Shown piece after piece: positions 4,775-29,100 of a DNA stretch of 64,000 bases. This stretch comes from Tubiluchus corallicola (lineage: Eukaryota > Priapulida > Priapulimorpha > Priapulimorphida > Tubiluchidae): assembly GCA_030141605.1 (NCBI GenBank), contig JAQGDQ010000680.1, positions 49,885 through 113,884 on the forward strand, written 5' to 3'. The first letter of the stretch is position 1, and the number at the start of each line of letters is the position of its first letter. Under the pieces are notes generated by a model. The model ran no database searches and was not told where the DNA came from. It saw only the letters and a program-made list of their open reading frames with translations. The position numbers and the translations under genes are program-made.

Positions 4775-6466
4775 ATGACAGCAGATAAAAAAGAAGCAAG
4801 TGCACATGAGTTGTCCATCCGGGCGTATGCCTCACTTGGATTTGCTATAGTGTGTCTTTTTATTGGTTTGCCTTTATGGTGGAAAACCACGACTGTATAT
4901 AGGATAAGGTTACCTTATCATGATATAGGTAACTTGTCTCATTCACAAATCACGTTTACATGTTATCTGACTATTGTAGCATGCAGTGATGATTTTAAAG
5001 TTCGAAATTTGGATTTGTTCAAACGTGAACTTGAAACACAGCTTTTTCTTTACCAGAGTATTTCAGCATATCGTGAGATTGTAGTGCAGTATCGAGTACA
5101 TTCACGATTTGCTTACGACGAGGAAAAAGAGCTGTTGTCTCAAGCTGAAACTCTAAAAGAGTTAAGCTATAAAATGACTTTACAAAATATCTTAGATCAG
5201 TATGGACATTATCATCTATTTCTCTTACCGAGGCAAAGCAAATTTTCCATGGTCACCAATTCTGATAAAAACATGTACTTGGGCCGCCACAGGAATGTAT
5301 TCATATTTTTACCAAATGATGAAAATCATCTAACAGGTATTGTCTCTAATGTGACTGAAGTGTTTAGAGACATCATTGTAAATGAACAATCCATTTTGCA
5401 AATTGTGAATAATACAGCCAACGTCAAAGTGACAAAGCATCTAGAGCCTGACAGAAATAGCATGAGATCAGTAAAGTCACACGCACAGTATGACATTGTC
5501 TTCAGTTTGCTTAACCCTCAACCAAATGTATTCAACGTACTTTGTGATTTTAATGCAGCTGTGCAAAAGTATATGACAGGTTTTTTTGAGAAGTTGTCTG
5601 TGATTGCAGCATTTAAAGTGGAGTCCCATATACTTTATTTTACAGCACTCGGCATGCATCCAAAGAAAAATGAGAAGACTGGTAATTTTGAAGTGTCGCA
5701 AGAACAACTGCCGCACAGTATAAATGCAATAGAAAAGCGTTTAGCGTCTTATGTGTCGACCAATCCCGTTTTACATTTTGTGGTTTATATCACTCCAAGT
5801 CAAATCACCCCTCTTGTAATAATTGATAACAATGAAACAGAAGTACAAACAAATGCTTTTCTGAGTCCTCGTTGGGGCGGTATTCATATTTATAATATGC
5901 CAGCACAGGATGAAAATAGTTCTTCGCCTATTCAGCATGTAATAAACTTGGAGACTTCTATGAAAGTATTCCTGACACAGCTACGTCTTTTCCTAGGGAT
6001 TAGTAACCATGGTTTTAATGAGGTAATACACAGAGAAATACCAGCACATGAAGGTATAAACGACTGGGAAATTGACACTTTAATATGGCAGCGAACAACA
6101 GAAAATTTGCTCACTACAATTAACACACTACAGTCACTTGCCCAACTGCTAGAAGAGATTAGCAACATTGTTATTAATGATGAAATTGGACAGGAGGTAT
6201 CTTTGGCTGTGGCATCAGTGCATGAGTCATGTAGATTACTGAAACGTGGTGATATCAAAGAAGGTTACAAACGATCCCAGCAAGCTCTCATTGCCTCGGA
6301 AAAGGCATTCTTTGATCCATCTCTTCTAGCATTACTATATTTTCCAGATGACCAGAAGTTTGCTATTTACATTCCTTTGTTCCTTCCTATTAGTATACCA
6401 ATAATTATGTCGCTACGCCATCTACGTTACATATTCCAGGAAAAAGAGAAAAGAAAAACAGATTAA
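4775..6466 (+). CDS. PIGS: GPI transamidase component PIG-S
   Basis: PIG-S is a subunit of the ER-membrane GPI transamidase complex (with PIGK, PIGT, GPAA1 and PIGU), which swaps C-terminal signal peptides for GPI anchors. The 563-residue product is close to the length of human PIG-S (about 555). An N-terminal membrane segment (about residues 17-36, ending GLPLWWKTT) and a C-terminal one (about 529-547, in FAIYIPLFLP) flank a large lumenal domain, the known topology. Family hallmarks are visible: SLLNP near residue 247, SPRWGG near 364, SNIVI near 464, and FFDPSLLALLYFPDDQKFAI just before the second membrane span. The reading frame has no introns. The first ATG fits because the following residues lead directly into the first membrane span. 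A likely polyadenylation signal lies 99 bases after the stop codon. Identity is recognised from family motifs and is very secure. Confidence 0.97.
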   Translation: MTADKKEASAHELSIRAYASLGFAIVCLFIGLPLWWKTTTVYRIRLPYHDIGNLSHSQITFTCYLTIVACSDDFKVRNLDLFKRELETQLFLYQSISAYREIVVQYRVHSRFAYDEEKELLSQAETLKELSYKMTLQNILDQYGHYHLFLLPRQSKFSMVTNSDKNMYLGRHRNVFIFLPNDENHLTGIVSNVTEVFRDIIVNEQSILQIVNNTANVKVTKHLEPDRNSMRSVKSHAQYDIVFSLLNPQPNVFNVLCDFNAAVQKYMTGFFEKLSVIAAFKVESHILYFTALGMHPKKNEKTGNFEVSQEQLPHSINAIEKRLASYVSTNPVLHFVVYITPSQITPLVIIDNNETEVQTNAFLSPRWGGIHIYNMPAQDENSSSPIQHVINLETSMKVFLTQLRLFLGISNHGFNEVIHREIPAHEGINDWEIDTLIWQRTTENLLTTINTLQSLAQLLEEISNIVINDEIGQEVSLAVASVHESCRLLKRGDIKEGYKRSQQALIASEKAFFDPSLLALLYFPDDQKFAIYIPLFLPISIPIIMSLRHLRYIFQEKEKRKTD

Positions 6467-7262: not shown

Positions 7263-7478
7263 TCACTTCAAATTACATTTCCAGTGCAGACTATGAATTA
7301 AGAACGAAAAATGGTTCTCAAAATCTAGTAAGTCGATTAGCATTATTGGTATTAAATCTTGTTTTAGGAAACTCGATTTTCTTCTTTGAAGTTGCTCAAT
7401 GGTTAAGTCTGCTTGTGAAGGCAATATGTTTGCAAGTTGTTGTTGCACTAGGTCATAAGAGAGCTTGATAATCCTCAC
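7263..7478 (-). pseudogene. Decayed tandem copy of the last exon of the neighbouring unidentified gene
   Basis: The translation contains ILPSQADLTIEQLQRRKSS, nearly identical to ILPSEPDLTIEQLQRRKSS in the exon at 7518-7744. At DNA level the two blocks align over about 200 bases, with a spacing near 245 bases. After the shared motif, this copy has lost bases relative to the intact copy, so its frame departs and ends differently. It also lacks the clear acceptor that precedes the intact exon. It is most simply a non-functional duplicate of the terminal exon. An alternative last exon is possible but less likely. Confidence 0.6.
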
Positions 7479-7517: not shown

Positions 7518-10500
7518 TTATGAATAAGAGTGAGAAAATGGTTCTCTAAATCTAGCAAATGAATTAGCATTAAAAGTGGTATTAAATCGCATTTTAAGCT
7601 GCTGCCATATACTTGATTTTCTTCTTTGAAGTTGCTCGATAGTTAAGTCTGGTTCTGAAGGTAATATGCTTGCATGCTTTTGTTCCACAAGCTCATTGAC
7701 AGCTTGGTAATGTATCCTCATTACTTCTCGTAGGTCATGAGCAACTACAAAGAAATGAAAATGCTAATTATCAGTGTGCATATAATAGCTGTGATGTACA
7801 CATACGTACAATGTTTATAATAATTAACCAGGGCCTGGCTATGAACAAGTTTGGCTCGGACCTTAATAAGTTTACATTTTACGTATCATAACTAAGTAAC
7901 TAATTTCTGCAAAAAATTATTATTTTGACTTTCTTCAGAAACTAACATAAAATCGGGGTTAGAAATGATAATATTCAAAATTCAAGTTGACATGGACTGA
8001 TTAAAAAGATCTTAAAGCACTTTATATTTACAAATATAGTTTTCTAACAGGAAGATTTTGCATAGCGCGTGAAGGTAATGTAAATGAATTGCTTACTAAA
8101 GTTGAACAATAAGGAGTTTTATATTTTATCGAGAATAATTATATTGTTCAATGATTTGCATAATATTTCTTATCTTTATGTTATATTGAGAGATCAGTGA
8201 ATTTTGTGATGCTTGTACCTATAAAGTTATCAATGAACAATTAGAAGCATTGCAATTTTAAGCAAATAATCCCCATATTTTAGCAATCTGTTTCGCAAGA
8301 TACATACATGTATGTAATGTCAACTGTTTAAACTACTTCAATATTTTTGTGAAGTTCCTCATTGTTTAAGCAAAAATTCGTTCAACCAACCAGATATACA
8401 AAAACTGTTTCATTAGTAGAAAGTGCTTACTACTGAGTAATAGTAGCTGAATTTCCACAACAAATAGTAATCACTCCGAAAAAGTAGTGGGGGCAATTAC
8501 TTTTTTAAAAAAAATAGTTGTTGCAATTATAATTACTGTATGAAGGTAGCGCTATCATAGCCACTACTTTTGTGCCAGGACTTCTGGGCATCGTTGGTTT
8601 AGTACAGCGCAAAGTGGAGATTGAATGTGAAAAGAGCCCGTTAATAGTGATAATTAAATTGTTAACTGGCAGCTAAAGAAACCTACACACAAGTACATAT
8701 TGCACCAAACTTTATTAAGGTTCTAACTACATTCAAACCTCTTTATACTACCCACTTGGCCCAAGTTTGCGGTAAGCAAGTTTAGCATTACAACTATGTA
8801 TATTAATGCATACATGTCTACGCAAATCTAGACATTTTGTTTTGCCAAAAATACGGGCTGGCATTAGAAAGGAGGCTATACAAGGTTGGCATTAGAAAGG
8901 AGGATGTTATAACGAGGTTTGACTGTGGCCCATCATGATTTTAAAGAAACACTTGCAGGTCATTTATACATTGTCATATCAAAGAAAATTATTCTTGTGA
9001 CAGATTATTTTATTAACATGCAATAAAATACTGTTCAAATTTAAAACATGTTTATTTGTTTTAAAAATAAGCAAAATATGTCTTTCAAGAAAAAACTCAC
9101 GAATAACAATAACCAGAGAGGTATGTGACATATTAGAGTCTCTTCACTGTGCCTGAGATCTTTACAATTACAAGTACGTATACAGTGACACAGCTGACTA
9201 AACCTGTAGAAGTCTGCAGTTTTTATGAAAACACAACTCGCTATGTACACATTTTCAACAGAAAGGTTTAAATGTAGTGCCGTTATAATTATAAGTAGTT
9301 AAATTATGATTTAACGCTATCTGTTTTCAAGATAGTGGTACTACTGCAGCATTACTAATTTTAGAAGTGATGCTAAGTAGTGGTTCAACATGTGGCACTA
9401 TTACCTAACACTGTCACTTAGTAAGTAAATGAAATTTTAGCTTTATCAATTTCTCCTACCTTTCGTTTCAAAGGACCTTCCTGTGCTCTCAAGCTTCACT
9501 TTTTGCAAGAAATTTATCATTGCCGCTGTTGCAAGAATCTTGCCTTCTCTTGTCAGTCCTTCAAAATATTGCAGGTCCACCTCAAGTGGATTAGTCGGTG
9601 GGAGAACACAGCAAAGTCGAACCAGTTCAGCAAGTATTTTCCACAGGGGCATGTCTACATTTAGGTAAAAATATGTGGTTTGAGATCACTATTCCAGTTT
9701 ATTGCCGTTATGCGTGCTTACAGGGGTTATGGACACAGCCTATTTCAACACATAGATAAATTGGACATGTGGACACAAGGTAATTTGGAAACATAGGATC
9801 TTTGGACAAAAGATAATTTGAAACAGAAGACTTTTGGACACTAGGTGTTTTTCACGGGATATTTAGACAGGAAGGTAATTTGAATACATTAACTGTTTAG
9901 ACACCAAAGTACCATTTGGATTCAGTCCTGATATCGTACCATTTATCAACATCGTTTGTTTAGTTATGCCCTGTTCTTGTAGATGGGCTGAATTTAAGCC
10001 GTTTTTTGCAAAATTCACGAAGTTTCTAATACCTAGAAAACTGTGGATCAAACAAATGATTTATTATCTATTTTGAAAGATTATTCTTCTCGCTACTTCG
10101 AATTAAACATTGCGCGAGAATTACAATGCGTGTCCAAATTACCCGTGTCCCAGTCACATTACCAATTTGTCCAAGCTGCCTTGTGTCCAAATGACCTATG
10201 TATCAAAATTACCTATGTGTTGAAACAGTTAGTGTCTGCACACCGTTATGCAGGTTGTATTTCAGTGCAAAATATCGGGTGACGCAGAAAAAATTTGCCA
10301 AAGTTTAGACTACAGTATTAAAAAAAGGGTCCCAAGTTTAAACTTCACAGCATGATATTACAGTACTTTAACTTTTGGTTGTAAAGTCACATATATAGAG
10401 GACTCAATACAAAGCAACAAAACCTTTAAGAAATCAACCAGTTTACATTATGGTTTTCACCACAGAAACTAAATCACTGATAAAGATATGTTGCCAAGAA

Positions 10501-13500
10501 AAAATGCAACTTAATCATCCGGATTTCTGTATCTGAAATTCCCATAAAGCACAAGAAAACCCTCCACTTACAGAAATCTTAAAAAATTCATCTTGAAATT
10601 TTATACCACTTACGGTACTGCCTTTTTGCATGCAGTGCTTGCGTCAGCAGTAACGCTGTATGAAGCTTGTAAATTTAAACTCCCGCAGCAACCATTAGGG
10701 GCAGCCATTTTAATGGTAGGTCACTTGAAACAAGTTTAGATAATATTTCTTGAAGTTTGAAAAAATAATCAGACAACGCATAGCACATATATTAGTAACT
10801 AAGAAAAACTTTAAATTACTGTATCTTGTCGATAAGATTAAAAATAGGCTTTTGGTTAGTTTAGAGTGGCGCACCCTGGAGAGTGAGCCAGTGACATTTT
10901 ACCAATTGGCACAAACATTTTAAATTACATTTCTAGTTACATAAGTCTTTCCAGCAGATAAGCAAAGTGCTAAGTAATATAGATTTGGATGGAAAGTTTT
11001 TAGGTCATAATTTAACATTGCCTTTTTTCCCCTGATTTAAGTTTGCATAGTGACGTCATGTAATGGTGACTTCAGAACAGTAACGCGGGAGATTTAAAAT
11101 GAAAACAAACAAAAATTCCTTTTAGCGCGAGTATAATATATGCATAAAAATGCTGTGAAGTTGTTCACAAATCATCAAATTCACAACCTAGAGTCATTGA
11201 ATATGCCAGTAAAGCCCAAAGGGATGCATAACAGAGGTACATCCAAATGGAGCATGAGGCCTTAGCAGTTGTATGGGCCGTCAGCCGTTTTAGACTCTAC
11301 ACTGTACAAGATTGTGACATTTTGTCGCATACAAACTGATTTATCAGGAATATGCAACAAATGTTTTCTTTTTTTGGACTGAGCACACCACAGTGTATCA
11401 CATGTGGATAAAGATAAAAAATGGAAAGATCATAAAGTTTTTACACACTAATTTCTCAAGGCAAGATCTTTTTATCCAAATTTATATGACAGTCTTATTA
11501 GTTTGATTAATACCAGGATACAGGTAGGCGTTCTTTGCACTATTACCATATATTCAGAAATTCAATAATGAACAAGCAGACAAACAAACATGAGTGCTTT
11601 TTTATAAAAACGTGCAAAAATTTGTTTAATGGCATATTCTAACGAATAAAATTCACATACACTTTTACATAGATATAAGAGAACTTAAATTACCCCATCC
11701 CAGGTTAAACGAAGGAGAGGAAGGGCATTTACCAAAGTATGGATCCACCATGAATCCATCAATGCAGCAGAGCATCCCAATGAGCATTGTCACATCGAGA
11801 TACCATGTGCCCGGCCATCCAGGGTATGTACTTCATAACCATAACTGCATGGAAAGTGTCTGTAGTGCTTATACATCATAGATTTCTCCCACAGGAGAAA
11901 TGCAGCAATTCCAAACGACTCTGTATGCTCCTGTACCTCTAGGACTGCATCGCATATAGCAAGAAAATTCTTCGTCTCACCAAAACACCATTGAGCACTG
12001 CCACCCAATCAGATTCTGTCTACTCCAGATGCCTATACTGTAGCAATTCCACCACACAGATGTGGGACCAACAGCCAAGAACGACGGCATTCGCAACAAA
12101 GTTTCACTGCTACTTTAAATACTGCAAAGGAACCGCCTTGAATTCCTCTCAAAGAAATAGAGAACAGAACCAGAAATCACTTTGTTTGAGATATCATAGT
12201 TAATAATGAACTGTTTCACTGCCCATCTTAATCCAACAGATTACAGGATCACCAAAAGTCTGCTGTCAAACGTCTTACTTCAATCACAACTTAACCCGTA
12301 ATGTTAGTAACAACGAAATCACGGTTCAGTGAAATCCAGAGGCACAAAACCTTACCTGAGCAAAATCATTGAAGTCATGTGGCGGAAGATCGCTATCATA
12401 AACAGGAAGGGCAGAGGTATTAAAGGAAGGGCAAGGACTCAACTCTATCACAGAACAAAAGTGAATATTTTATTATGCTAAAAATTAGGATATGTACAAA
12501 ATGAACTCCAGTATAAATGGGATAACTGCGACGTCACAAAGATAGCGATACACAACTGAGATACCTTCATGTTTCCATAGTGACGTAGTTTTCAGCTTTA
12601 GTGGACTGTCTTTTTCCGGACTGTCTTCTGTCATCTGCATTAAAGTAGCATGGTTTGAACGTAGCCAGACATATGGGCAGCCATATCTTATGTAGGCAGC
12701 TATGAGAAACAAGGTTGATCTGTCATCCTGGGAAACAATATTTATGATTAGTTTATTGAATCAACAGGCCAATTTTTCCTTGTAACCTGTATTACATGCA
12801 GCTTGCGATATGTACTACACTATAACTATTACTTGTAATGTGATATTATAATCATGCAATTCATTAATCAAGAGTTAAGCTGTTGTCAATGTCAAGTCCT
12901 CTTCACTCTGGGACGCATACAAGTGATTCTGCACCACGAGCATCTTTGGATCTGTGGGGTATCTGTTTCTGGTTCCAGTAATAAGGCACTTGCTTTCTTG
13001 TGTCACTAAGAGAATGAAACGACAACCATTGATATTTTTAGCACTACTGACAATTAGGCCTGTAACGATACATCAATGCATTAATGCATGGTGATATCTT
13101 TTATTACGATATGCATACCGTCAAAGTGCATCCGTATTGTGATAATCTGAGTTAATCATATTTAGCAAATTAGCATACGCTTGACCGTGTGCCGATAAAA
13201 CAATTCAAACTGCAGAGAATGCTACTAACTACGTAGCAGATGCATTAATGCATGGTGATATCTTTTATTACTATATGCATACCGTCAAAGGGCATCCGTA
13301 TTGTGATAATCTGAGTTAATCATATTTAGCAAATTAGCACACGCTTGACTGTATGCCGATAAAACAATTCAAACTGCAGAGAATGCTACTAACTACGTAT
13401 CTATAGATATTTAGATACCTATAAATCAGTGCAGTGAACAATAGTTGACTTGACACAGGCACTGCTAGAAGCAGAAGCACTTGAAAATGTGTATCTGTAG

Positions 13501-16500
13501 CAGGCTAATTAGTAATTACAAGTTATTTACATATAAACTTGTGAAATGGCAAAAGTAAACCAGAAAATGCACAAGCTACTTTTAAACCTAACGTGTTGAT
13601 AAGTTTTGCTTTTCGGATGGTTTACAAAACAAACAATAGCCTACTCATTACACAAGTAATAAATAAAAATCAGACAGTTTACAATACTAAAACTGTCGAT
13701 TGATAAAATATGTTTAGCACCTTTATCTAATGTTTTTCGTAAAACCTGCACACTCTGGCTCAACTGTAGCGTGATATTATATCGTCAGGTTAGTATCATG
13801 ATAAGTATCGTATGTGTATCGTATGATATGTATTGTATGACCTAGGTGTTTCATTACAGCCCATTGACAATAAAGTTGCCTTTTATAAGTAAAAAATAAC
13901 AAATACAATATAAATCAGGTGAAAACACAGAAAGATGTAGTTCCCCACAGTGCCTACTAGAGAGCTGGCCCTGCCGACAGCCCACCGTTTAAGACACTAG
14001 TTGTCACACCTTGCAGACGAACTCCTGATCACTAGGTGAAGCAGGTCGCAATCCAAAAGAATGTTTAGTTCCATCTCCCCAATTGGTCAACTGTTTCTGC
14101 GTGTCGATTGACATCATAAGAGCTTTCCTTAAAAGTAATTTTCGCTAATGTATAATTACTAAATGCATAATGACATGCAGCTATTAAAGAGCTGATTTGC
14201 TTGTTTTAAATAATACATTTTCAATTTTTTTGTGAAATCTTTTTGAAAAAACAAATTTCCTAAGGGGCAGCTAGCTAAATATATGCTTTCTACTAATGTA
14301 TATGTTGACTCAGTCAAAATGGCCAGCATGCATGCAATCTGAAGAACACGTTAAATTCTGTTTCTTTAGTCACAGTGAAATTACTTAGAATAATTTTTGT
14401 ATACAACTCAGCTTTCAAAGGCAGGACCTCCTACTTAAATTAGATGGTCAAGGTGAGGCCGGAACCTGTAGATGAGATAATGTGCCTGGCAAAGTTATCT
14501 CGGCTACATCTGGATGCACATGCATCCTCCCTTCTGGACAAGGTAAACAGCCAGAGTCGGCATGATTCAGAGCAAGAATCGATGCACTCATTCATCCACT
14601 GACCAGCATTGGCACCATTCTTAGCTTTGGTCATTAAGCATGATGCCACGATCACCAAGTTGTACACTTAGGTTCTGTGCACCACAAGGAAATTACAATA
14701 GATATTTCATAGGAAAGGGTACGTGACATTTGAGCACAGCCATTTGGGCATGCGATATATGGGCATGGCACACTTGGGTACAGAACATTTGGGCATGGGG
14801 TACATGGGCATGGCACACTTGGGTACAGAACATTTGGGCAGAAAACCCAGTCAGCTGAGTCAGCAAACCCAGTAAATCCAAATAACTAAAACCAGTCAAT
14901 TAACTGCACTTTCCAGTTTTCACTATATAAGAATTCAGTTTTTAGCATGTAACTTTTAAAATAAATGAAGTAGAAGACACGGTAAATTTTCATTGGCATT
15001 TTATCAAAATATGACAGAATTTTGTTTCAAAAACATCTGCTGCATCACAAAAAAGCAAATAACAGAAATGTGCACTACAAAAATGTGTTCATACCAAAAT
15101 TTAGTGTCAGTACAACTAGTGCAGCAATCTAACCAGTATATCTATTGTCAGCGAAACTTTTGGTAGAGCCAGGTTTATAAGATTATTACTTCAAGTAATT
15201 ATAAAGACATTTATTAAACCATTACCGCCTGACATCAATCTGCAATATGCACAATCCTTTTATCTTGTTAACATGCTCGCACATGCCAACAGCATGGTAC
15301 ATTCTATCACAATACTATATTAATTGAACGCTTGGTGTGGTTTAGAAGAAAGCGACCTAAAATGCGTTGTTTAGATCATTGGTCGCTTATAACTAGCTAG
15401 ATCAGTTAGTAAGCCAATTAAATGATATATGCTTAACAATGCCATGATCAACAATAATTTTAAGCATTTTTGCTGTATCTCTTCTGAAATGCATGATTAT
15501 ATGATGCATCCAGCCTGTAGCGGATAGCCCTATAGGCTGAAGCCTAAGGCCCGGGATCAAAAGGGGTCCGGCAAAATAAAACGAAAAATTTTTTTTTGTA
15601 AGAAAAAATAAATTGACAAAAGAGCAAGGGGCCCGCCAAAATAAAATATAGAAAAAAGTTTTTTTCTCAAAAGTCAGTCACTATATTTCAAATCGGGTTT
15701 ACACAAATCAAGTTTACACAATTTAAGTTTACACAATTTAAGTTTACACAATTCACGTTTACACAGTTTAAGTTTAAGTTCAAAATTTCAGTTTCTGAAT
15801 TTTTCTGGGGGCAAAGTCAGTTATAATTTCTGAAAAGTCCATTTTTTTCAACATATCTGACTCAACATGCATCAGTGATAAATTGTTTAATTTGTCATCC
15901 TTTAGAGATGACCGTAAAAAAGTTTTTATCCTTTTCAGAGCAGAGAATGATCGTTCCCCACTGCAGTTTGAAACCATCATACACAAGTACATTCTAACAC
16001 ATATGTAAACATTTGGGAACAGTGACAGAAGGTTATTGGAAACAATTTGCAGATACATCTGTAGTTCAATGCTGCCGTTGCAAGTTTGGTCACATTTCTG
16101 GATAAACGACTGGAAGTGTACTAACTCTTCTACAAAAGATGTCTCTAAATCATTAGGATACGTGTCCAAAAGATTTCGAGCAGCTTGGCACAATCGGTGG
16201 GCAAAAACTCACAAAATTAAACAAACTTACAAACGACGAGAACTCCACAAAAACACGTCAGCTCAGCAGTGTAGCCACATTTAAAAGGCCCGTTCCAAGC
16301 TCAAGCCTAAGGCCCATAAAATCATAATCCGCCGCTGCATCCAGCAATAGGTTTTTACACACGCGATATATAGTTGTTTCCAGTTTTACACAATCATACT
16401 CACGAAAATAATAATATTATTAATTTTCTTAAAAAAACTTTAGATGTTTTAAAGTTACATGACAAGGATTCCCATAATAATTTTAGCGTACTGGGCAGAG

Positions 16501-18225
16501 TGATTTGTAGTGCAAAATCGGAATAGTGTATTCTTGAGTGGTCGAGTCATGTAGGACGTAACTTGCGCATCACAACTGGTACCAAAATGTCTCGCACCCA
16601 AGTGGGCCGGCATCCAAGTGTATGGCACCCAAACGGTGATGCCCAGCCTTCCCACGCCCAAATGTTCTGTTCCCATCTGGCACATGTCCAGTTAGCAAAT
16701 CTTTCTGATTTGTTGTAAATGGGATTTCAAAAGCTTTTCTAGTGGGGACAAAGCATTTGGGCGTGGGAAGGCTGGGCATCACGTTCTGATGCTCTGATGC
16801 CCAAGTGGGTTGGCATCCAAGTGTATGTTTGGGTGCCATACACTTGGATGCCAACCCACTTGGGCATGAGACATTTGGGCACCAGAATCGACGCACACTG
16901 CACTTGTGAAAGAAAATAATTCTGGTACTGAATGTAGAAGAAAATAATGAATTTCACAAGAGATGCCATGAAGCTTAATCTTGAAAGTGATAACTAGATA
17001 TTAAGAATTTTTCCCATTAATTCGTGAATACTATCGTGTAATTGACATTAGAAATAAGTAAAACACTCACCATGCATAAAAACCTCTGGTGCTGAACGCA
17101 GGTGGAAATCATGCATTTCACAAGAGATGCTATGAACAAGGGTAATCTTGAAAGTGATAATTAGGTATTGAGAATTTTTTCTCATTTGCTGACCTACTTT
17201 CTTTGAAATAGGCAGCTATTATAAACAACTTAAAGTAAATAACTATGGAAGTTTTTGCTGAATCAATCATTCCATAGTTATTTATAAAGCACACCAAGCG
17301 CTGAATGAATAGTTACATGTTAATGTTATAGGCTATCGTCGGCTCACTTGGAATAAGCATTGTTAATATCGAACAACTAAATCGCACTGTTCATATTACA
17401 GACATGCTTTAATCATTCATTATAAAAACTACACATAGGCTAATCCTGAAGGAGGAGAAAGTGCAGAAACGCAGTTAACTGATTTTAATTGTGTTATTAA
17501 ACATTATGACAGTTAGGAACATAGTGAATTACTAAATATTTTATAAACAAAAATAGCAAAAATTTTAGGTACAATATTACATTCTGTTCGTGCCCAAGTG
17601 TCCCCATGCCCAAATGTCACGTACTCATGCCAGACATCACATGTAATCTTTTACCATAGACAGCATAGTGCTACTTTATGTTACCCTAGTACAAAAGGGA
17701 TAAACAGGGCCTACTATAGAAAAATTTAAGGAACTCACTTGTCATACGGCAGGACTCCATATTTTGTACCAGATGCAGCTGGAGAAAAACTGTTGGCCAA
17801 AATGGAATTCTGGTCACTTTGATTGACCTGCTTCAAAAATAAATATTGAAATTAAAAATAAGTGTTTTTCTTGTCTTTTTATATTAAACTGTGCCTACTA
17901 AAAATAGGAGCCTTAAAATAGAATTTTGAGGCCCTCACTTTTATATTGTAACTTTGACCGCTGAGTAGCCAAAATAATTAGTCGACAATAGTAATTAGCC
18001 TAGTAGACCATAAAGGAAAATTTTGTCCTGTCGTATGGTATCATTATCTACGAAAATGTTTATAGTAGTTGAATAACTCACCACAGGTTCATTTACAATC
18101 GTGCACATTAGTTCTTCTTTTCCTTGCACATAGGTTGCAAAGTAACGAAAGCCTTCGATGCACCCAATGCTAGACAATTCACTTAAAAAAGACTGAAGTT
18201 TCTTCTTCTGGTTTGGAAATTTATC
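7518..18225 (-). CDS. Unidentified multi-exon gene (nine exons recognised, 5' end missing)
   Basis: I do not recognise the product. Exons, in transcript order, with phases that join without a stop: 18082-18225, 17739-17827, 14010-14127, 12921-13005 (its acceptor may instead be at 12992), 12565-12727, 12356-12444, 11981-12019, 9460-9654 and 7518-7744, which ends at a TAA stop. Most have good GT/AG sites, for example CAG|GTAAGG after 12356 and CCCAG before 12727. The joins 14010 to 13005 and 11981 to 9654 do not match in phase, so a small exon or another splice site is missing in each. The visible product is about 380 residues and looks soluble. Recognisable stretches are GCIEGFRYFATYVQGKEEL, KYGVLPYDK, RYGCPYVWLRSNH, LPVYDSDLPPHDFNDFAQ, and a C-terminal helical part with LTIEQLQRRKSS. 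No signal peptide, membrane span or catalytic motif is obvious. It converges on PIGS. Large introns hold the foldback and hAT insertions listed separately. Confidence 0.7.
9714..10242. mobile_element. Foldback-type element, family A copy 1
   Basis: Long imperfect inverted repeat arms consist of degenerate short repeats: GGACACAAGGTAATTTGG-like units on the left, and their reverse complement (TTGTGTCCAAATGACC-like) on the right. The outer 25 bases of the arms pair well (GACACAGCCTATTTCAACAC on the left). The direct repeat CCGTTATGC flanks it at 9705-9713 and 10243-10251, a plausible 9-bp target duplication. There is no coding capacity. It lies in an intron of the unidentified minus-strand gene, 60 bases from the exon at 9460-9654. 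A second family member is at 55559-56838. Confidence 0.75.
10545..11155 (+). repeat. Dispersed repeat family R, copy 1
   Basis: This block shares ordered landmarks with 25840-26290 and 34584-35005: AAAGCACAAGAAAACCCT at the start, TTGAAATTTTATACCACTTA, GCAGTAACGCTGTATGAAGC, GGTCACTTGAAACAAGTTTAG, and AGATAAGCAAAGTGCTAAGT. This copy is the longest, and all three have the same orientation. No open frame is conserved, so it looks like a non-autonomous element or part of an untranslated element end. No terminal repeats were identified. Confidence 0.7.
11193..11339 (+). pseudogene. Ty3/gypsy RNase H fragment
   Basis: Frame +1 from 11193 reads VIEYASKAQRDA, then a stop, then QRYIQMEHEALAVVWAVSRF. 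The ...YAS..L......Y...E.EALAVVWA...FR.Y pattern is the classical RNase H region of gypsy-type retrotransposon polyproteins. An in-frame stop and the absence of flanking RT or integrase show it is a short dead fragment. It directly follows repeat R copy 1. Confidence 0.7.
13056..13864. mobile_element. hAT-like non-autonomous terminal-inverted-repeat element
   Basis: The left end AGGCCTGTAACGATACA and the inverted right end ATGGGCTGTAATGAAACA form short imperfect terminal inverted repeats. TGACAATT (13048-13055) and TGACAATA (13865-13872) flank the element as a near-perfect 8-bp duplication, the size expected for hAT transposition. The interior has no transposase and includes a 163-bp tandem duplication. 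It lies between two exons of the unidentified gene, about 50 bases from the exon ending at 13005. Confidence 0.65.
13079..13404. repeat. Two-copy 163-bp tandem repeat
   Basis: The unit starting GCATTAATGCATGGTGATAT occurs at 13079 and 13242 and runs to ACTAACTACGTA at the end of each copy. The two copies differ at only a handful of positions, so this duplication is much younger than the element that contains it. Confidence 0.9.
14440..14667. other. Coding-looking segment of uncertain strand
   Basis: This GC-richer stretch is open on both strands. On plus, the frame from ATG at 14442 reads through PEPVDEIMCLAKLSRLHLDA to a donor-like AAG|GTAAAC. On minus, it reads WMNECIDSCSESC and RDNFARHIIS. 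Neither frame could be joined in phase to the exons of the unidentified gene. It may be a remnant exon or chance, and I do not assign a strand. Confidence 0.2.
15514..16336 (-). mobile_element. hAT transposon remnant with 8-bp target duplication
   Basis: GCATCCAG occurs on both sides (15506-15513 and 16337-16344), the 8-bp duplication typical of hAT elements. Both ends carry TAGCGGAT / GGCGGAT-type sequence followed by an AAGCCTAAGGCCC-like block, in inverted orientation. The only coding content is the transposase C-terminus at 15780-16193, so this is an internally deleted, non-autonomous derivative. Confidence 0.75.
15780..16193 (-). pseudogene. hAT transposase C-terminal dimerisation domain fragment
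   Basis: A 137-codon frame ends the element. It contains SNCSGERSFSALKRIKTFLR, followed by LKDDKLNNLSLMHVES. This is the signature of the hAT family dimerisation region (ERSFS.LK.IK..LRS....RL..L..L), closest in style to ZMYM/zinc-finger-MYM-like hAT proteins. The zinc-finger and catalytic core are absent, so it cannot encode an active transposase. Confidence 0.85.
16797..16867. repeat. Perfect 31-bp hairpin
   Basis: Arms 16797-16827 and 16837-16867 are exact reverse complements, beginning ATGCCCAAGTGGGTTGGCAT, around a 9-base loop. It sits within the family B foldback structure and is its best-preserved part. An exact 31-bp palindrome in otherwise decayed DNA implies recent formation or gene conversion between arms. 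Confidence 0.95.
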
Positions 18226-20098
18226 CTTTAAAAAATTATTTGTGGTTTAGCAAAAACTGTTATTTATAGTAATCTTTACCAAGATACAGAATTTTAACTA
18301 GTCTAAAGAGAAAAAAGGCTTTATACCGATTTCCATGTTGGTTTGATGTTCTTTAATGAAGCTTCTAAAAATTATACCAACGCTTTCATATCAGCTACTA
18401 AAAGTTTGTTTTTCATTACTAGTATATGTCACCTAATTCATAGTCATGTAGTGCTCAAAGTTGTTTTTGGTAATTTCTTATTACCGAGTCTTGTAATGTC
18501 ACACACGTACAAAGGTTCAAGCCTCAAAAAAGAAACTGTCACTTGTTCGATCTGAACCTTTGGGAAAGGTGTGAGAATATGGGAGCGTGAAAGTTTGTAA
18601 CGGGCAGGTATCGATAAACCTCTAGATAGCTAATGAGCTAGAGAATAATATGTGTTTTTGCCGAGGTGTTACAAAATTTTTGTTTGGTTACACCAACACT
18701 TCAAATATGTAATTTTATACTTGTTGAATGAGAAAGTCGGGAAAGGTGTGTGAATCCTGCACAGGCACGTACATGTCGTTACTCGTTATATATCTAATGA
18801 CCTATAATAAAGTCACAAGAAAAAGTCACAATTAGTTTTAGCTACAGTTAGGATTAGGGTTATGCTTATTTCTTTTTTCCTGTAATTTTATTCCTGTGAG
18901 CTTTTTCTGTAACTTTTTATCTAGAATCCACCTGGGAGGGGGAGCGATAAACAGCATATTCTTTTGCTGATTTGTTACAAACTTTTCTTTGATTGCACCA
19001 GGTAGCTCTAAATCTGAAGTACAGGGAAATGCAGGAACAAAGATTCTAATGGGCTGCTTGCAATGCTCATAGGCAGGAGGAGTACAAGAGAGGAATATAT
19101 CTTTGCTGGGTGTTACAAAGTTATCTGTAAGAGAAAGTACATTTGAAGGTTTTTCAAATTTTCAATAGTTTGAATGTCAAACTAACTTTAATTTGATTCA
19201 ATGCTGAATAGCGCATTCGAGGCTGAAAATGTTACAAATGTTACACCTTCAAAACACGCTTGGACAAATTTGCACGTACTAGAAATCTCCTATACTAGCA
19301 CCCAAGTTGGCACACGAGGTAGAGCGTTTGCCCAGATAAACTATATAATTGCTCAGCAGACAATAAGATAACAAAAATTATCAGTTGGCTAACATTCACC
19401 ACCAGGTGACACTCACCATTTGGTACAGGTTAATAAAAAAGTGGATTGTAAATGGAAGCACACTATATCAGGTGAGCAAATCAGATGGGAGGCTATTATG
19501 AATCTTGAAAGTTGATATCAAATATTCAATATTGAATATTAAACCAACTTTAAACGGTTTAGATGCAAATATTGTATATGAGCGAGACAAAGTCGTGGTG
19601 TACGAGCATGTCAAATCAAATATAACTCTATATTTAAATGTTAGTCCTACAGAGTGGGCATAGTGAACACCACAAAATCGTGGAAGTGAACAAATAAACT
19701 TCATCCCTACAAAAAACATTGTGAACATATCGCACTCCACGTAAATTAACTCTGGTAATTTACATTTCATCATCCACGTCAATATCTATCAGATGCAGAT
19801 GCTTCAATCAACACAAACTATCAATAGGAGCTTTTCTTCACACGACAGTAATCTAGTAGCTTGAAATTAAATAAGCCAGTATGCCGGGCTTGTTGTACAA
19901 CTGCAAAACTCTTTGATTAGAATAGAGCACACGCTCACACAAAAATGTTCTGTAGATTCCACTAAACCGCGCTCACAGAGTATAAATTTTCAAATAAACG
20001 TAATTATTCTGAGCGTGTTTACAGCTTACCATTATGTTTGTTTACATTACTGTCATAGAAACGCGCGGTACTTGCGATTGCCGCTAGATGTTGCATGC

Positions 20099-21041
20099 TG
20101 TTGGGAGCCGTTTGGACCACTGCGCCAAGTAGACCACTTGATGCGCTAAAAGTAGTGTCCTACATGGGCAGCCCAAGTAGGACACTAGCGATTTTTATCG
20201 AGAAACTTGCTCTGGCAAAACTTGTTTCCAGTTTATATTACCATTGTTTATAAGTATTGTTATGACATAATAAAGCATAAAACAAAATTTCTTTTAGAAA
20301 TGGATATTCCTTGGCAATTTACAAATGCATTTCTTACAATAATTTCATCATTATGATTAACTCCATTAATATATCATAACATTAAACCTAGTATCTAATG
20401 CTTTAAAGAGAGAAATTCTGCACACGGTTATTACAGAAATAATTGCAAATTTAAAAATGAGACAGATGCTGCTAAGCCTTCACAACACCAAAAAGTAATT
20501 TTTAACATTTAAGAAAAGCAAGGATAATTAGTTTTAATATTATCAGTAGTATTGTAACATGTAGGGCACTGTCCTACATGGCTCGCTAGCCCATGTAGGA
20601 CACATAGATCGCTAGAACGTTTACTTATAAGAAAACAATTATTTGCCCAAGAGGTAGTGAAACGGATCACCTGTTTGTGAAGTGAGACAAAATCAAAAAT
20701 GATATACCTTAAACAAATGTTGAATTCGCAAAAAAGTGGGGTTTTTTCACTTCAACAACATTAATATCGAAACCAAATTTAATATTGTCCGTTCTACCAG
20801 CTCAGAATAAAATTCTTTTATTTTATTAGATGTATAATAAATTATTCAACGTGTATTAACGTTTTTAATTATTATTATTACATAAACAAGCACAACGGAC
20901 GGTGTCAGTACACTTAACGACTGAATTCACGACCTGTCTCTAGTGTCCTACTTGGGCTAGCCCAAGAAGACCAATTGGTCTGGGCTAGCCCAAGAAGACC
21001 AATTGGTCTACTTGGCGCAGTGGTCCAAACGGCTCCCAACA
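20099..21041. mobile_element. Terminal-inverted-repeat element (MITE-like) with exact 38-bp ends
   Basis: The first 38 bases (starting TGTTGGGAGCCGTTTGGACC) are exactly repeated in inverted orientation at the right end. CATGC flanks both ends (20094-20098 and 21042-21046) as a 5-bp direct repeat. Inside are several GTGTCCTACATGGGC / GCCCAAGTAGGACAC-type inverted motifs and a 28-bp tandem unit GGGCTAGCCCAAGAAGACCA... near the right end. There is no coding capacity. The superfamily is not clear from the ends. It lies in the presumed shared upstream region of ACOT9 and the unidentified gene. Confidence 0.85.
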
Positions 21042-23111: not shown

Positions 23112-26100
23112 GTGATCCTGGTCATTTAAGTTGTCCAAGCATACAAGATGGTAAGTACCTGCAATCTTAAAAAGTATAGATATGAAGGACGTCTTCACTC
23201 AAATGTGTATCATTTTTTTCATAGTGATTATGATAATTAAAAAAATGTGTATTCCAGTTTAGAACTTCGTGGTCACTGTGGTGCACACAGTAAAAGGCTG
23301 CCTGTAGTGATATGAATCATTGTCATGTAGGTGTATATTGTAAAGCTTAACAAAAGTCATACATGGTATAACTGATATTTCGCTTTGTGCATGAATATCG
23401 TAATATGTACAACACAGCCATGATCTGAAACAGTACCAGAAACTGGCAGTATCTATTTTCATTAGTGGCTGTTTCATTTTTGTAACTGCTGCATGATGTG
23501 TTGGAAACTGACTATCATTGTTTAAAGTTTGCAAAACTGATTAGCTTTTTATTTTTCTGTTTAGCTGTTCTTCATATTAAAAAGTGTTTTTATATTTTTC
23601 AGTACGAAATGAGATGATCAGCATTGTAAGAAAACAATTAAAAGATAGGTGAGTAATCAGTAATATAAATGGGAATTATCATTATGTATTTTGTTCATTT
23701 ATTTTTTATCCTGAGAATGCACATTTTCACCCTGAGAACATAAAATTCTTTTTAGGTAACATGAGACAGCATTTATTTCACTTTGTTTATTGGGTGGCAA
23801 CTTAATTATAATATTTCTATGACCTTTGTGGTCATTATTACTTGCCAAAATTTCATTTATGTAAGCACTTAAAACTGTAGTGACAGCCTTGCCAATTAGT
23901 GAAATGACTGAAAAATATATAAAAAATAAAAATTAAAAATTTTGTTTCACTTGTTTCAGTAAAGTAGTCTGTTTGTTTAAAATAACTGTTACGAAAACTT
24001 ATGTTATGCAATTATCCAGAAGTCTTTGTAAAAATATATTTTAGTGAAAGTGGGCTATTGTCAAGTGGAGCTCCTACTTTGACTTCAAAGCATATGAGAG
24101 ATGGTTATGCTGAGGCAGTAATACCACTAGCTAGTGATCAAGAATTGAGAAGAAAATATGTGACTTTCTGGCGTACAGGCACAAGGTTTGGTCGAGTCAT
24201 GGAAGATCTGGATACAATGGCAGGTAAGTAGTGAAATGCATTGATGGCAACAGTGCTGTGTATGATTACATGAGTGCTTAGAAGGACATGGAGCTATCCC
24301 CATTTTGAAGTTGGAATAAGATAGACTAAATGAGTTGATATTTCAAAGCTCAAATAATCATTTTGTAAAGGTGATCTAGTCAAACTTGCCTTTGATTGAA
24401 AATGTCAGAACTATAAGACGTGGTATTTGTGGCTGTTTTTACCTGCTGTTTAGCAAAACAATTTTTGCAGACCCTGTTTTGCAGTCATAATAGTTTTGTA
24501 TGTGAGAAAGTGACTTAGCTTAGCTATCAAATGTATACAGCAGGTTCTTTTGGTAATTACAATGTCATCAGTTTAAGATACACGTATGCACGATATAATC
24601 GTCTATGAAATTGCCAATATTAGGTCATAGGGAAATGAAATTTTCGTCAATAAGATTGGCTCAATGTAATTAACAATTATGTGTTAATAATAATACACAA
24701 TATATTTGAACATCTGATGTCAGTGTGCAAGTTCTGAGCATCTCACTCAAATACCTGCATTCTTGATGGGCTGGTGTGAGAGCAAAATCAAGGTCAGAAT
24801 CAAATTCAAGACTTTCAAGCACATCTTGTACATATTTCATGAATTTTTTCTATCAGTATCCATTAGAAGCACATAGTTTTTCTGACTGGTAATGAACTCG
24901 TTAAACAGCTGCAAGATGTGTTCTATAGCTTTGAATTCAGTACTGACCATTCTATGTCCTTTTTAATTTTAACCTTGGACTACAGGTTATACAAAAGACT
25001 CGGAGCATGCACACTAAGCATTAAGTTTATTCAGGGTTTTTTTATTACTTTAGGCATCTTTTGACACATCTATAAGAACATTCTCTGTTATTGCTCGTTG
25101 TTCTTTGTTTACTAGCAAATAGTTCCTTGTCGCCCTAATGAACTAAGTTAGTTCGCAGTAACTATGATTTATGTAATTTGTATTCAGAATTCCACAGATG
25201 GTATTACATGTTATATAAATTGTTATATGTAGCCATTGCTGCTATTTCATTCCATCTGGATCTAAGCATTCCAAACACAGATGTTTTCAAAATTTGTCCA
25301 TGCATATCCAATAGCAATTACTTAAGTCAAATTTTCTATGTTTGCAACAAGAGAAACTATTGCCTACAATTTTCTGTGCACCTATTGCTTTTGACATCGG
25401 TGCACCAATTTTTGACATCTTGTATTCTTATTAATTAGTAATTTAGCTTATGTGATATCAAGCATTTAATTTTTTTTATCATTTCAGGTTTTGTTTGTTT
25501 TAAACACAATAGCAGTCTCATCAGTAATCACTGCATGTCATTTGTGACTGCATTAGTTGATCGAATAGGTGAGTTTCTGTGCTGACTTTTCTGCAAACAA
25601 TTTTCTGCCTTTGAGCAAAATGTATGGGTTAAGCATTGCCATTAACTATTGCACTGTGATATAATTTTACTTTAGGGGGGGCTGTCTCTAGACTACAATA
25701 GGGCTCAAACTTACTGTTGTGCTTTTCCAGAATTTAATTTTTTTTCTTAATATACAATTATAATAATATATTTTAATTTAAAATTTTATAAATTAATATA
25801 ATTTAATTTAGTATTATATCTCATAGTTTATGAATTGTTAAAGCACAAGAAACCCTCAATTTACATAAAGTTTAAAAAATTTGTCTTGAAGTTTTATATC
25901 ACTTACATTGTGCCTTTTTGCAAACAGGTCTTGCATCGGCAGTAACACCGTATAAAACTTGTAAATTTAAGCTCTCGCGATGACTGTTAGACGCAGACAT
26001 TTTGACGATAAGTTATTTGAAACAAGTTTCGATAACATTGAGTAGAGTTTGAAAAAACAATCTAGTTACATGAGCCTTTCAAGCAGGTAAGCGAAGTGCT

Positions 26101-29100
26101 AAATAATATTACTTTGCACAGAAAGTTTTTGGGACATTGTTGAATATTTCCTTTCCTTCCTCTCATTTACGTTGCGTGTATATGAAGTCATGTAATGGCG
26201 CTGTCAAAACAGTATAGCGAGAGATTTAAAATGCAAACAAACAAAAAATCCTTTCAATGCGAGTATGATATACGTATGAAATTGCTACAAAGTAACATAA
26301 TTTTTAAGGCAATTTTTCTGAAACTTACTTCAGGTACCCTTTTTCTTGTACTTTACTGTCATAAATACCTGTTAATTAGATGCAGAAAGCACAATAGAAA
26401 TTTTCATTCACAGCCATGATATTTAATCTAGTAAATGACATATAGATGGCAGCACTATACAGGTTATTACATTCTCTTTGTGAAGTTTAATTGTTGTGAA
26501 ACAAGATTTAGCACTAAATTAATTTTCCATTCTACACAATACAGTGCGCAACAGATTACAAATTAATCTTGACAACAAGTTTAGGAATGTGTTCAGAACA
26601 TCTCAAACTAACTGGTTTACTACTAGCATTATTGTTGGATTTTATGCCACTTTTACTCGGAGAAACGGCGACATTACCTTTATCAGGAGTTTTATCCTGA
26701 ACTACGGATTTAGCTTTATCAGATACAACCGACAATTGAACACAAGCAGGGTATACTGTAGTTTTATTATCAGAATTAGTCACTGGTACAGAAGTAACAA
26801 CTTTAGAAGTTGCAAATGGAAGCTTTACATTACAGTTGTATGGCTACAGTGTCCTTTAATTCAGGCACATGAACAGGTCAGTAACACTATAAGGTGCGTT
26901 TCGATACACTGACAAAAATTAGCAATTCTATGAGACAAAAAAATACTAGTACTATTACTAGTTTTCAGGTTTCATAGAACTTGTTTCAAAGTTTGCATGG
27001 CTCATTCTGCGAGTCCATTACAAGCAGGATGGTACGGAGGATGCTGCAAACATATTTCGTAGCACTTCCATAGTTTTGTTTGCAGTGATTGTAGACATTT
27101 GTATAACCTCAAGCCACTTTGAGCAATTATCTCTATCTTGTTCCACTCAGCAAAATCAATTTGCATGCATTGCCACATTCTAGTTGCAAACTTCTACAGA
27201 TGCAATGGAACTACAGCTGGCTTACGTTGCACTAGTTGACATGTAGTACAAGCTTGGGCAATTTGTTGTATGTCAGAGTCAATACCTGACCACCACAAGC
27301 TACGACAAGTGGATTTCATACGATTGATACCGAAATGTTCTTTATGGACCATCTATCAGCCTACGCTGAAAGACTGCAGGAATGATGACCCACAACAAGC
27401 AATTTTTATCAAACGATATTTCGTCGTTGTCGCGGAAATAAGGTAGTAATTCCTCATTGACAGCAGTAGGTCATCCATGCAATGTACATTCAAGTACTTT
27501 ACACAGAACTCTATCTTTACTAGTAGTTTGTGCAATACGATTGGCATTTAATTTAATGTCATCACTAAATGACGTCATATACTCAGATTTGCAGTTACAC
27601 TTAACTGTCTCTGGTAACGGCCATCAACTCAAACCATCACAATTAGCATGATGCTCTAAATGTCGATATTCAATGACATATGAATACGATGCGAGAATGA
27701 GGAACTGGACTGCTGCATAGAATGCAACATTGTATTGCTGCAGCAGCCATAGATGAAAGACTGGACTTTGGCCCTAATAAAGTTAATAACGGCTTATGAT
27801 CAGCAACCAATGTAAACTTTCTACCATAGCAGTACAGATGAAGTTTGCTAACACTGAAGATTAATGCAGGAGGTTCACGTTGTGAACCGTTTTGTTCTGC
27901 CAGGGTAATAGTATGCAATACAAAAGCTACAGGCTTTTCTTCACTACCAGGCATCACTTGTGATAGCACATATGCCATAGCAAGACACATCACATGCTAC
28001 TTTTACTGGTTTCTCAGAATCATAGTCCACTAGCACTCCGTCACCTATTAAAGTGTTCTTGCAAGATTCGAAGGCTTTGGTGAATGCATCACTGCAATAC
28101 CGTTCTGAGTCTTTATGCAGCAACTGATTCAGCGGATATAGCATGGATGAAAGATTTCACGCAAACTTTCCATAGTAATTCAGGAGGCCTAACCAAGAAT
28201 GAAGCTGAACAGCATTAGTCGAACCTGGCACATTGACAATTGCATCCATTTCTCTTCCAGTGGATGAATGCTATGTCTATCAATGACATGACACAAGTAT
28301 ACAAAACCGTCTTGCAAAAATTTGCACTTGCCCATTTTAGCTTTCACATTATAATCTGCTAGTCGCTCAAATACGTTTTCTAATGCAAATAAATACAAAG
28401 ATTCAGCCACATCTTTCAAAGCTACTAAAATGTCATCTATGTATCACTTGACACCTGGAAGACAACTTGTGATTCTTTCCATTACAGATTGAAAAATTGC
28501 CGGGCTGTTGCTATTCCCTAATTTAGGCATTTGTAGTCATACAAGCTACAATGTGTAATTATAGTGAGCAATTCACCCATGCGTCATCCAGCTGTAACTG
28601 TTGAAATGCATTCACAAACCTACCTTGGAAAATCACTACCCACCAGCAAGAGAAACAAAGATGGATTCTGAAGTAGGTCGGTGTATTGGTAATGTTTTTT
28701 TATTCTATAACAAATTGTAACTTCTTGCAGAAGTCAGAGATGGCATGATGTGCATTGATCAAGACATCAAGCTGACGGGACATGTAAGCTGGGTGGGAAA
28801 GACATCGATGGACATTTCTATGAAAGTAGAGCAACTTAAAGACAAAGTGTGGAAACATATTTTAGACACCCATTTTCTGATGGTTGCAAGAGATCCAATT
28901 CGTGGTAGAGGGTAAATGTTTACCATACTTTACTGTTTTGGACTGATGGTTATTTGTTTGTAATTTTCAATGTATATTAATGAAATTATTTCAAAACACT
29001 ATTTTTGTCACTTTGCAAAGATTTCTTTCAATGTGCAAAAGTGGAAGTAATGCAAGAAAATTTTTGACATCAATTTGACTGAAATAAAGGACAAGAGAAA

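Follow-up and report, generated by a model that had tools for sequence, protein, structure and literature searches.

A ten-exon gene for a DUF7886 family protein in the priapulid Tubiluchus corallicola

A 64,000-nucleotide stretch of Tubiluchus corallicola DNA (GenBank assembly GCA_030141605.1, contig JAQGDQ010000680.1, positions 49,885 to 113,884; "the window" below, numbered from its first letter) carries on its minus strand what we are nearly certain is a single-copy, intact, ten-exon animal gene for a 423-residue protein of the DUF7886 (PF25377) family, a family that is already catalogued in Pfam, is named by number only and has no assigned function. Re-splicing of the window's minus strand gave ten exons between 20096 and 7518 that run from ATG to stop, and residues 220–362 of the spliced protein match PF25377 over its full length (positions 1–144 of 144) with 168.6 bits (E 9.1e-50, Pfam scan), well above the curated cut-off of 27 bits for this family. 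A sequence-only reading of the window had described a nine-exon minus-strand gene with no assignable family, perhaps a member of a poorly characterised animal protein family. The last suggestion was essentially right, as the match to DUF7886, a family known by number only, is full-length; a multi-exon gene does end at 7518, but several false exons had been included and its start was missed, and a routine profile search supplies the family (PF25377, E 9e-50).

Results

The DUF7886 domain

After splicing, the whole DUF7886 domain lies in one reading frame, as a single stretch across exons 7–10 (Table 1), and nothing in the comparison with PF25377 speaks against membership. When exon-sized pieces were compared with Pfam, the 12727–12565 piece matched profile positions 12–66 (E 9.5e-22) and the piece made of 9654–9460 and 7744–7518 matched positions 66–144 (E 1e-19); these two matches abut in the profile, and therefore nothing belongs between exons 12727–12565 and 9654–9460. 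The letters at the joins are in accord with this: exon 12727–12565 has one spare base at its end (GAA G/gtatct), exon 9654 has two at its start (tag/AC ATG), and their phase-1 join reads KHE-D-MPLWK. Exon 14127–14010 finishes in phase 0, its direct join to 12727 being in phase, and exon 17827–17739 (CAA/gtgagt, two spare bases) makes an in-phase join with the acceptor at 14127 (ttttaag/G AAA). Exons 7 to 10 are supported because the DUF7886 match spans three splice joins without interruption; these last three joins are established, as are the intactness of the domain and the family to which it belongs.

When all 343.5 Mb of the assembly were searched with PF25377, no more than two exon matches came up, both in this gene, so that to the extent that the assembly is a guide the gene has a single copy. 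No second Pfam domain was found in the 423-residue protein up to E 10, an NCBIfam scan returned chance matches only, and none of the solved structures matches it. Relatives were sought in viral contigs and prokaryotic genomes and none was found, as expected for an animal gene. A literature search on DUF7886 and PF25377 gave no paper bearing either name; all of its matches concerned C12orf56.

C12orf56 (DUF4551, PF15087) deserves comparison, since the two proteins have by eye a loosely similar plan (an N-terminal half that is partly strand-rich and a C-terminal part that is mainly helical), and a structure prediction has led to the proposal that C12orf56 has a PH domain together with a Ric-8-like helical one (PMC8986115). 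In sequence they are unlike. The protein has no PF15087 match up to E 10, the genome has a separate C12orf56 gene on contig C2212 (DUF4551 match E 1e-20), and the best pairwise matches of our protein to the C2212 open frames are no better than those of shuffles (z 0.4 to 2.8). C12orf56 was rejected as the family of this protein on these profile and pairwise tests and on the genome's possession of its own C12orf56 gene, and we regard it as very unlikely that the DUF7886 protein is a C12orf56 relative that acts as a G-protein regulator. Equally improbable in our estimation is an undescribed family of intracellular regulators whose fold would be distantly akin to those of C12orf56 and Ric-8, with a PH-like N-terminal half that sequence comparison does not recognise. 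An early guess, SZT2 or another KICSTOR subunit, was abandoned when the complete 423-residue frame was found to match a different family.

The gene model

All nine introns of the 423-residue model are GT-AG, the phases agree at each join, and the chosen frame is stop-free in each of the ten exons. Six of these exons (18225–18082, 17827–17739, 14127–14010, 12727–12565, 9654–9460 and 7744–7518) had been recognised in the sequence-only reading, and their in-phase chain and the PF25377 match show them to be real or very likely real. That reading began the protein at 18225 and gave it about 380 residues; in fact there are further open, in-phase exons upstream, the first of them starting with an ATG at 20096, so that the full chain has 423 amino acids. 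We consider exons 2 to 6 very likely to be real and exon 1 tentative. The evidence for upstream exons 1–4 consists entirely of phase, splice signals and open frame, and residues 1–219 are without homology support. The DNA upstream gave a chain score of 38.5 with a toy splice finder, higher than any of 60 dinucleotide-shuffled sequences, whose scores averaged 14.0 (sd 5.2) and reached 28.5 at most; the finder's own path differs from the hand-built exons, and it is too crude for exon choice and serves only as a score against shuffles. An AATAAA-type signal is absent from the 1.1 kb 3' of the stop codon.

Table 1. Exons of the DUF7886 gene, in transcript order (window positions; a slash marks the exon boundary at splice donors)
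Feature	Position	Strand	Content and evidence
Exon 1 (tentative)	20030..20096	-	Start codon, residues 1–22 plus one base; ATG, open frame, strong donor ATG/gtaagc, in phase with exon 2; without homology support
Exon 2	18932..19124	-	Residues 23–87; 63 open codons, acceptor ctcttacag, donor CAG/gtggat, in phase, single copy in genome; absent from sequence-only reading
Exon 3	18485..18522	-	38 bases; acceptor tttcttttttgag, donor TCG/gtaata, in phase; absent from sequence-only reading
Exon 4	18327..18364	-	38 bases; acceptor ataatttttag, donor TCG/gtataa, in phase; closes frame between exons 3 and 5; absent from sequence-only reading
Exon 5	18082..18225	-	Residues 113–160; open frame, donor GTG/gtgagt, single copy
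Exon 6	17739..17827	-	Residues 161–190; acceptor gaagcag, donor CAA/gtgagt, in phase with exon 7
Exon 7	14010..14127	-	Residues 190–229; DUF7886 match begins at residue 220 (first 10 residues of domain)
Exon 8	12565..12727	-	Residues 230–283; DUF7886, includes RYGCPYVWLRSNH; PF25377 positions 12–66, piece E 9.5e-22
Exon 9	9460..9654	-	DUF7886; PF25377 from position 66, piece shared with exon 10 E 1e-19; in phase with exon 8
Exon 10	7518..7744	-	End of DUF7886 (PF25377 to position 144), C-terminal tail, stop codon

Stretches left out of the model

Two stretches had been singled out earlier as looking conserved, and they fared differently: RYGCPYVWLRSNH lies within DUF7886, but LPVYDSDLPPHDFNDFAQ (12444–12356) is a fragment of a dispersed repeat. 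The surrounding DNA, 12516–11600, is 73% identical to contig C2185 over an alignment of 960 bases and 69–74% identical to contigs C596, C1766 and C1218 over about 470–570 bases, and LPVYDSDLPPHDFNDFAQ can be read in each of the latter three at 59–62% identity, with an in-frame stop in all three. The 11600–12516 region (minus strand) is part of an older dispersed repeat, with copies about 70–74% identical, that encloses this false exon. Moreover, 12444–12356 has a phase-0 end, which rules out a join to exon 9654, and an exon ending at 11981, as implied by the previously described gap, would fall in the same repeat (12516–11600). The exon 13005–12907 occurs once in the genome, yet in frame 0 it opens with TGA, so that the phase-0 donor at 14010 cannot be spliced to it; the model has no need of it, and with it inserted the family score falls and DUF7886 loses its first eight positions. 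For the C-terminal part, leaving the false exons out gives a DUF7886 score of 170.7 bits in one stretch, versus 147 bits in two for a chain built from the earlier exon list as inferred from its quoted coordinates. The two phase gaps that had been left for filling (13005–14010 and 9654–11981) thus stem from false exons and not from missing ones; both close (14010 to 12727 in phase 0, 12565 to 9654 in phase 1) because the false exons are left out. The open frame 14666–14466 is likewise not needed in the model, and parts of its DNA have weak matches at other places in the genome; it was tried as a small Tim protein (PF02953) and rejected, at 13.3 bits (E 0.06) against a cut-off of 22.3 bits.

Repeats around the gene

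A 943-base inverted-repeat element with 42-base inverted ends occupies 20099–21041, 3 bases 5' of the proposed start codon, and has dozens of near-full-length copies in the genome at 96–100% identity. The sequence GCATG is likely to be its 5-base target-site duplication, which overlaps the ATG of exon 1; because these letters are duplicated, the ATG itself is unchanged by the element, though the DNA directly upstream has been altered.

This recent insertion, introns full of repeats and a degenerate, incomplete copy of the last exon just downstream are what might be expected if the gene were a decaying pseudogene. Against this, the domain is complete (E 9e-50) and without stop or frameshift, the splice sites are intact, and the assembly holds no other copy, so that decay seems to us extremely improbable and we treat the gene as intact. 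The downstream copy is at 7292–7472 (minus strand), just 3' of the stop, where most of the last exon is repeated in tandem at 77% identity over 195 columns with gaps. Intron 6 contains what remains of a hAT transposase C-terminal dimerisation region at 15783–16208 (minus strand; PF05699, E 1.8e-9), and short degenerate intron repeats lie at 14741–14840, 16570–16900 and 9770–9840; these are of the types CCCAAATGT/GTGCCATGCCCA and TTTGGACAAAAGATAA, and the CCCAAATGT/GTGCCATGCCCA type recurs across the genome as well.

Neighbouring genes

The left neighbour is a single-exon PIG-S gene at 4775–6463 (PF10510, E 1e-131), which is on the plus strand and is therefore convergent with the minus-strand DUF7886 gene. 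On the other side, an open exon at 24050–24210 (plus strand; FGRVMEDLDTMAG) may resemble acyl-CoA thioesterase 9, a retroelement remnant with a reverse-transcriptase RNase H-like match (PF17917, E 2e-12) lies at 27673–27996 (minus strand), and minus-strand integrin alpha exons are found at about 45–48 kb. Integrin alpha, like the size of the genome, is in keeping with an animal source. A search of the assembly for the mitochondrial COX1 family found no match.

Properties and possible role of the protein

The 423-residue protein has a mass of 48 kDa and a pI of 8.7. Inspection revealed no apparent signal peptide, and no stretch is strong enough for a membrane helix (the best 19-residue hydrophobic mean is 1.2). 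A crude propensity profile has strand signals in parts of residues 30–165, mainly helix after residue 280 and a mixture between. We infer that the DUF7886 protein is soluble and intracellular, without signal peptide, membrane segment or known catalytic domain, and that its N-terminal half would be partly strand-rich and its C-terminal DUF7886 domain and tail largely helical. The likeliest role for such a protein would be that of an adaptor or scaffold, with the C-terminal region as the part that attaches to its partner proteins. This mechanism, drawn from the absence of other features and the crude secondary-structure profile, is offered tentatively, as a possibility somewhat short of probable.

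It could instead be an enzyme with a catalytic domain so diverged, or so little studied, that it escapes recognition, given that residues 1–219, half of the protein, have no assigned domain and DUF7886 itself no assigned function; however, neither Pfam nor the solved structures include a catalytic relative, and we consider an enzyme unlikely. The adaptor or scaffold proposal combined with the gene and its family, and weighted to the family, makes a reading that we judge reasonably probable as a whole.

Discussion

The gene is an ordinary addition to a known, uncharacterised family, and a re-spliced model is now at hand for an intact member of DUF7886, an animal family without a function. Its locus also illustrates that intronic repeat fragments can look like conserved exons to a reader working by eye. 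Should laboratory animals have orthologues, their knockout could yield the first function for DUF7886.
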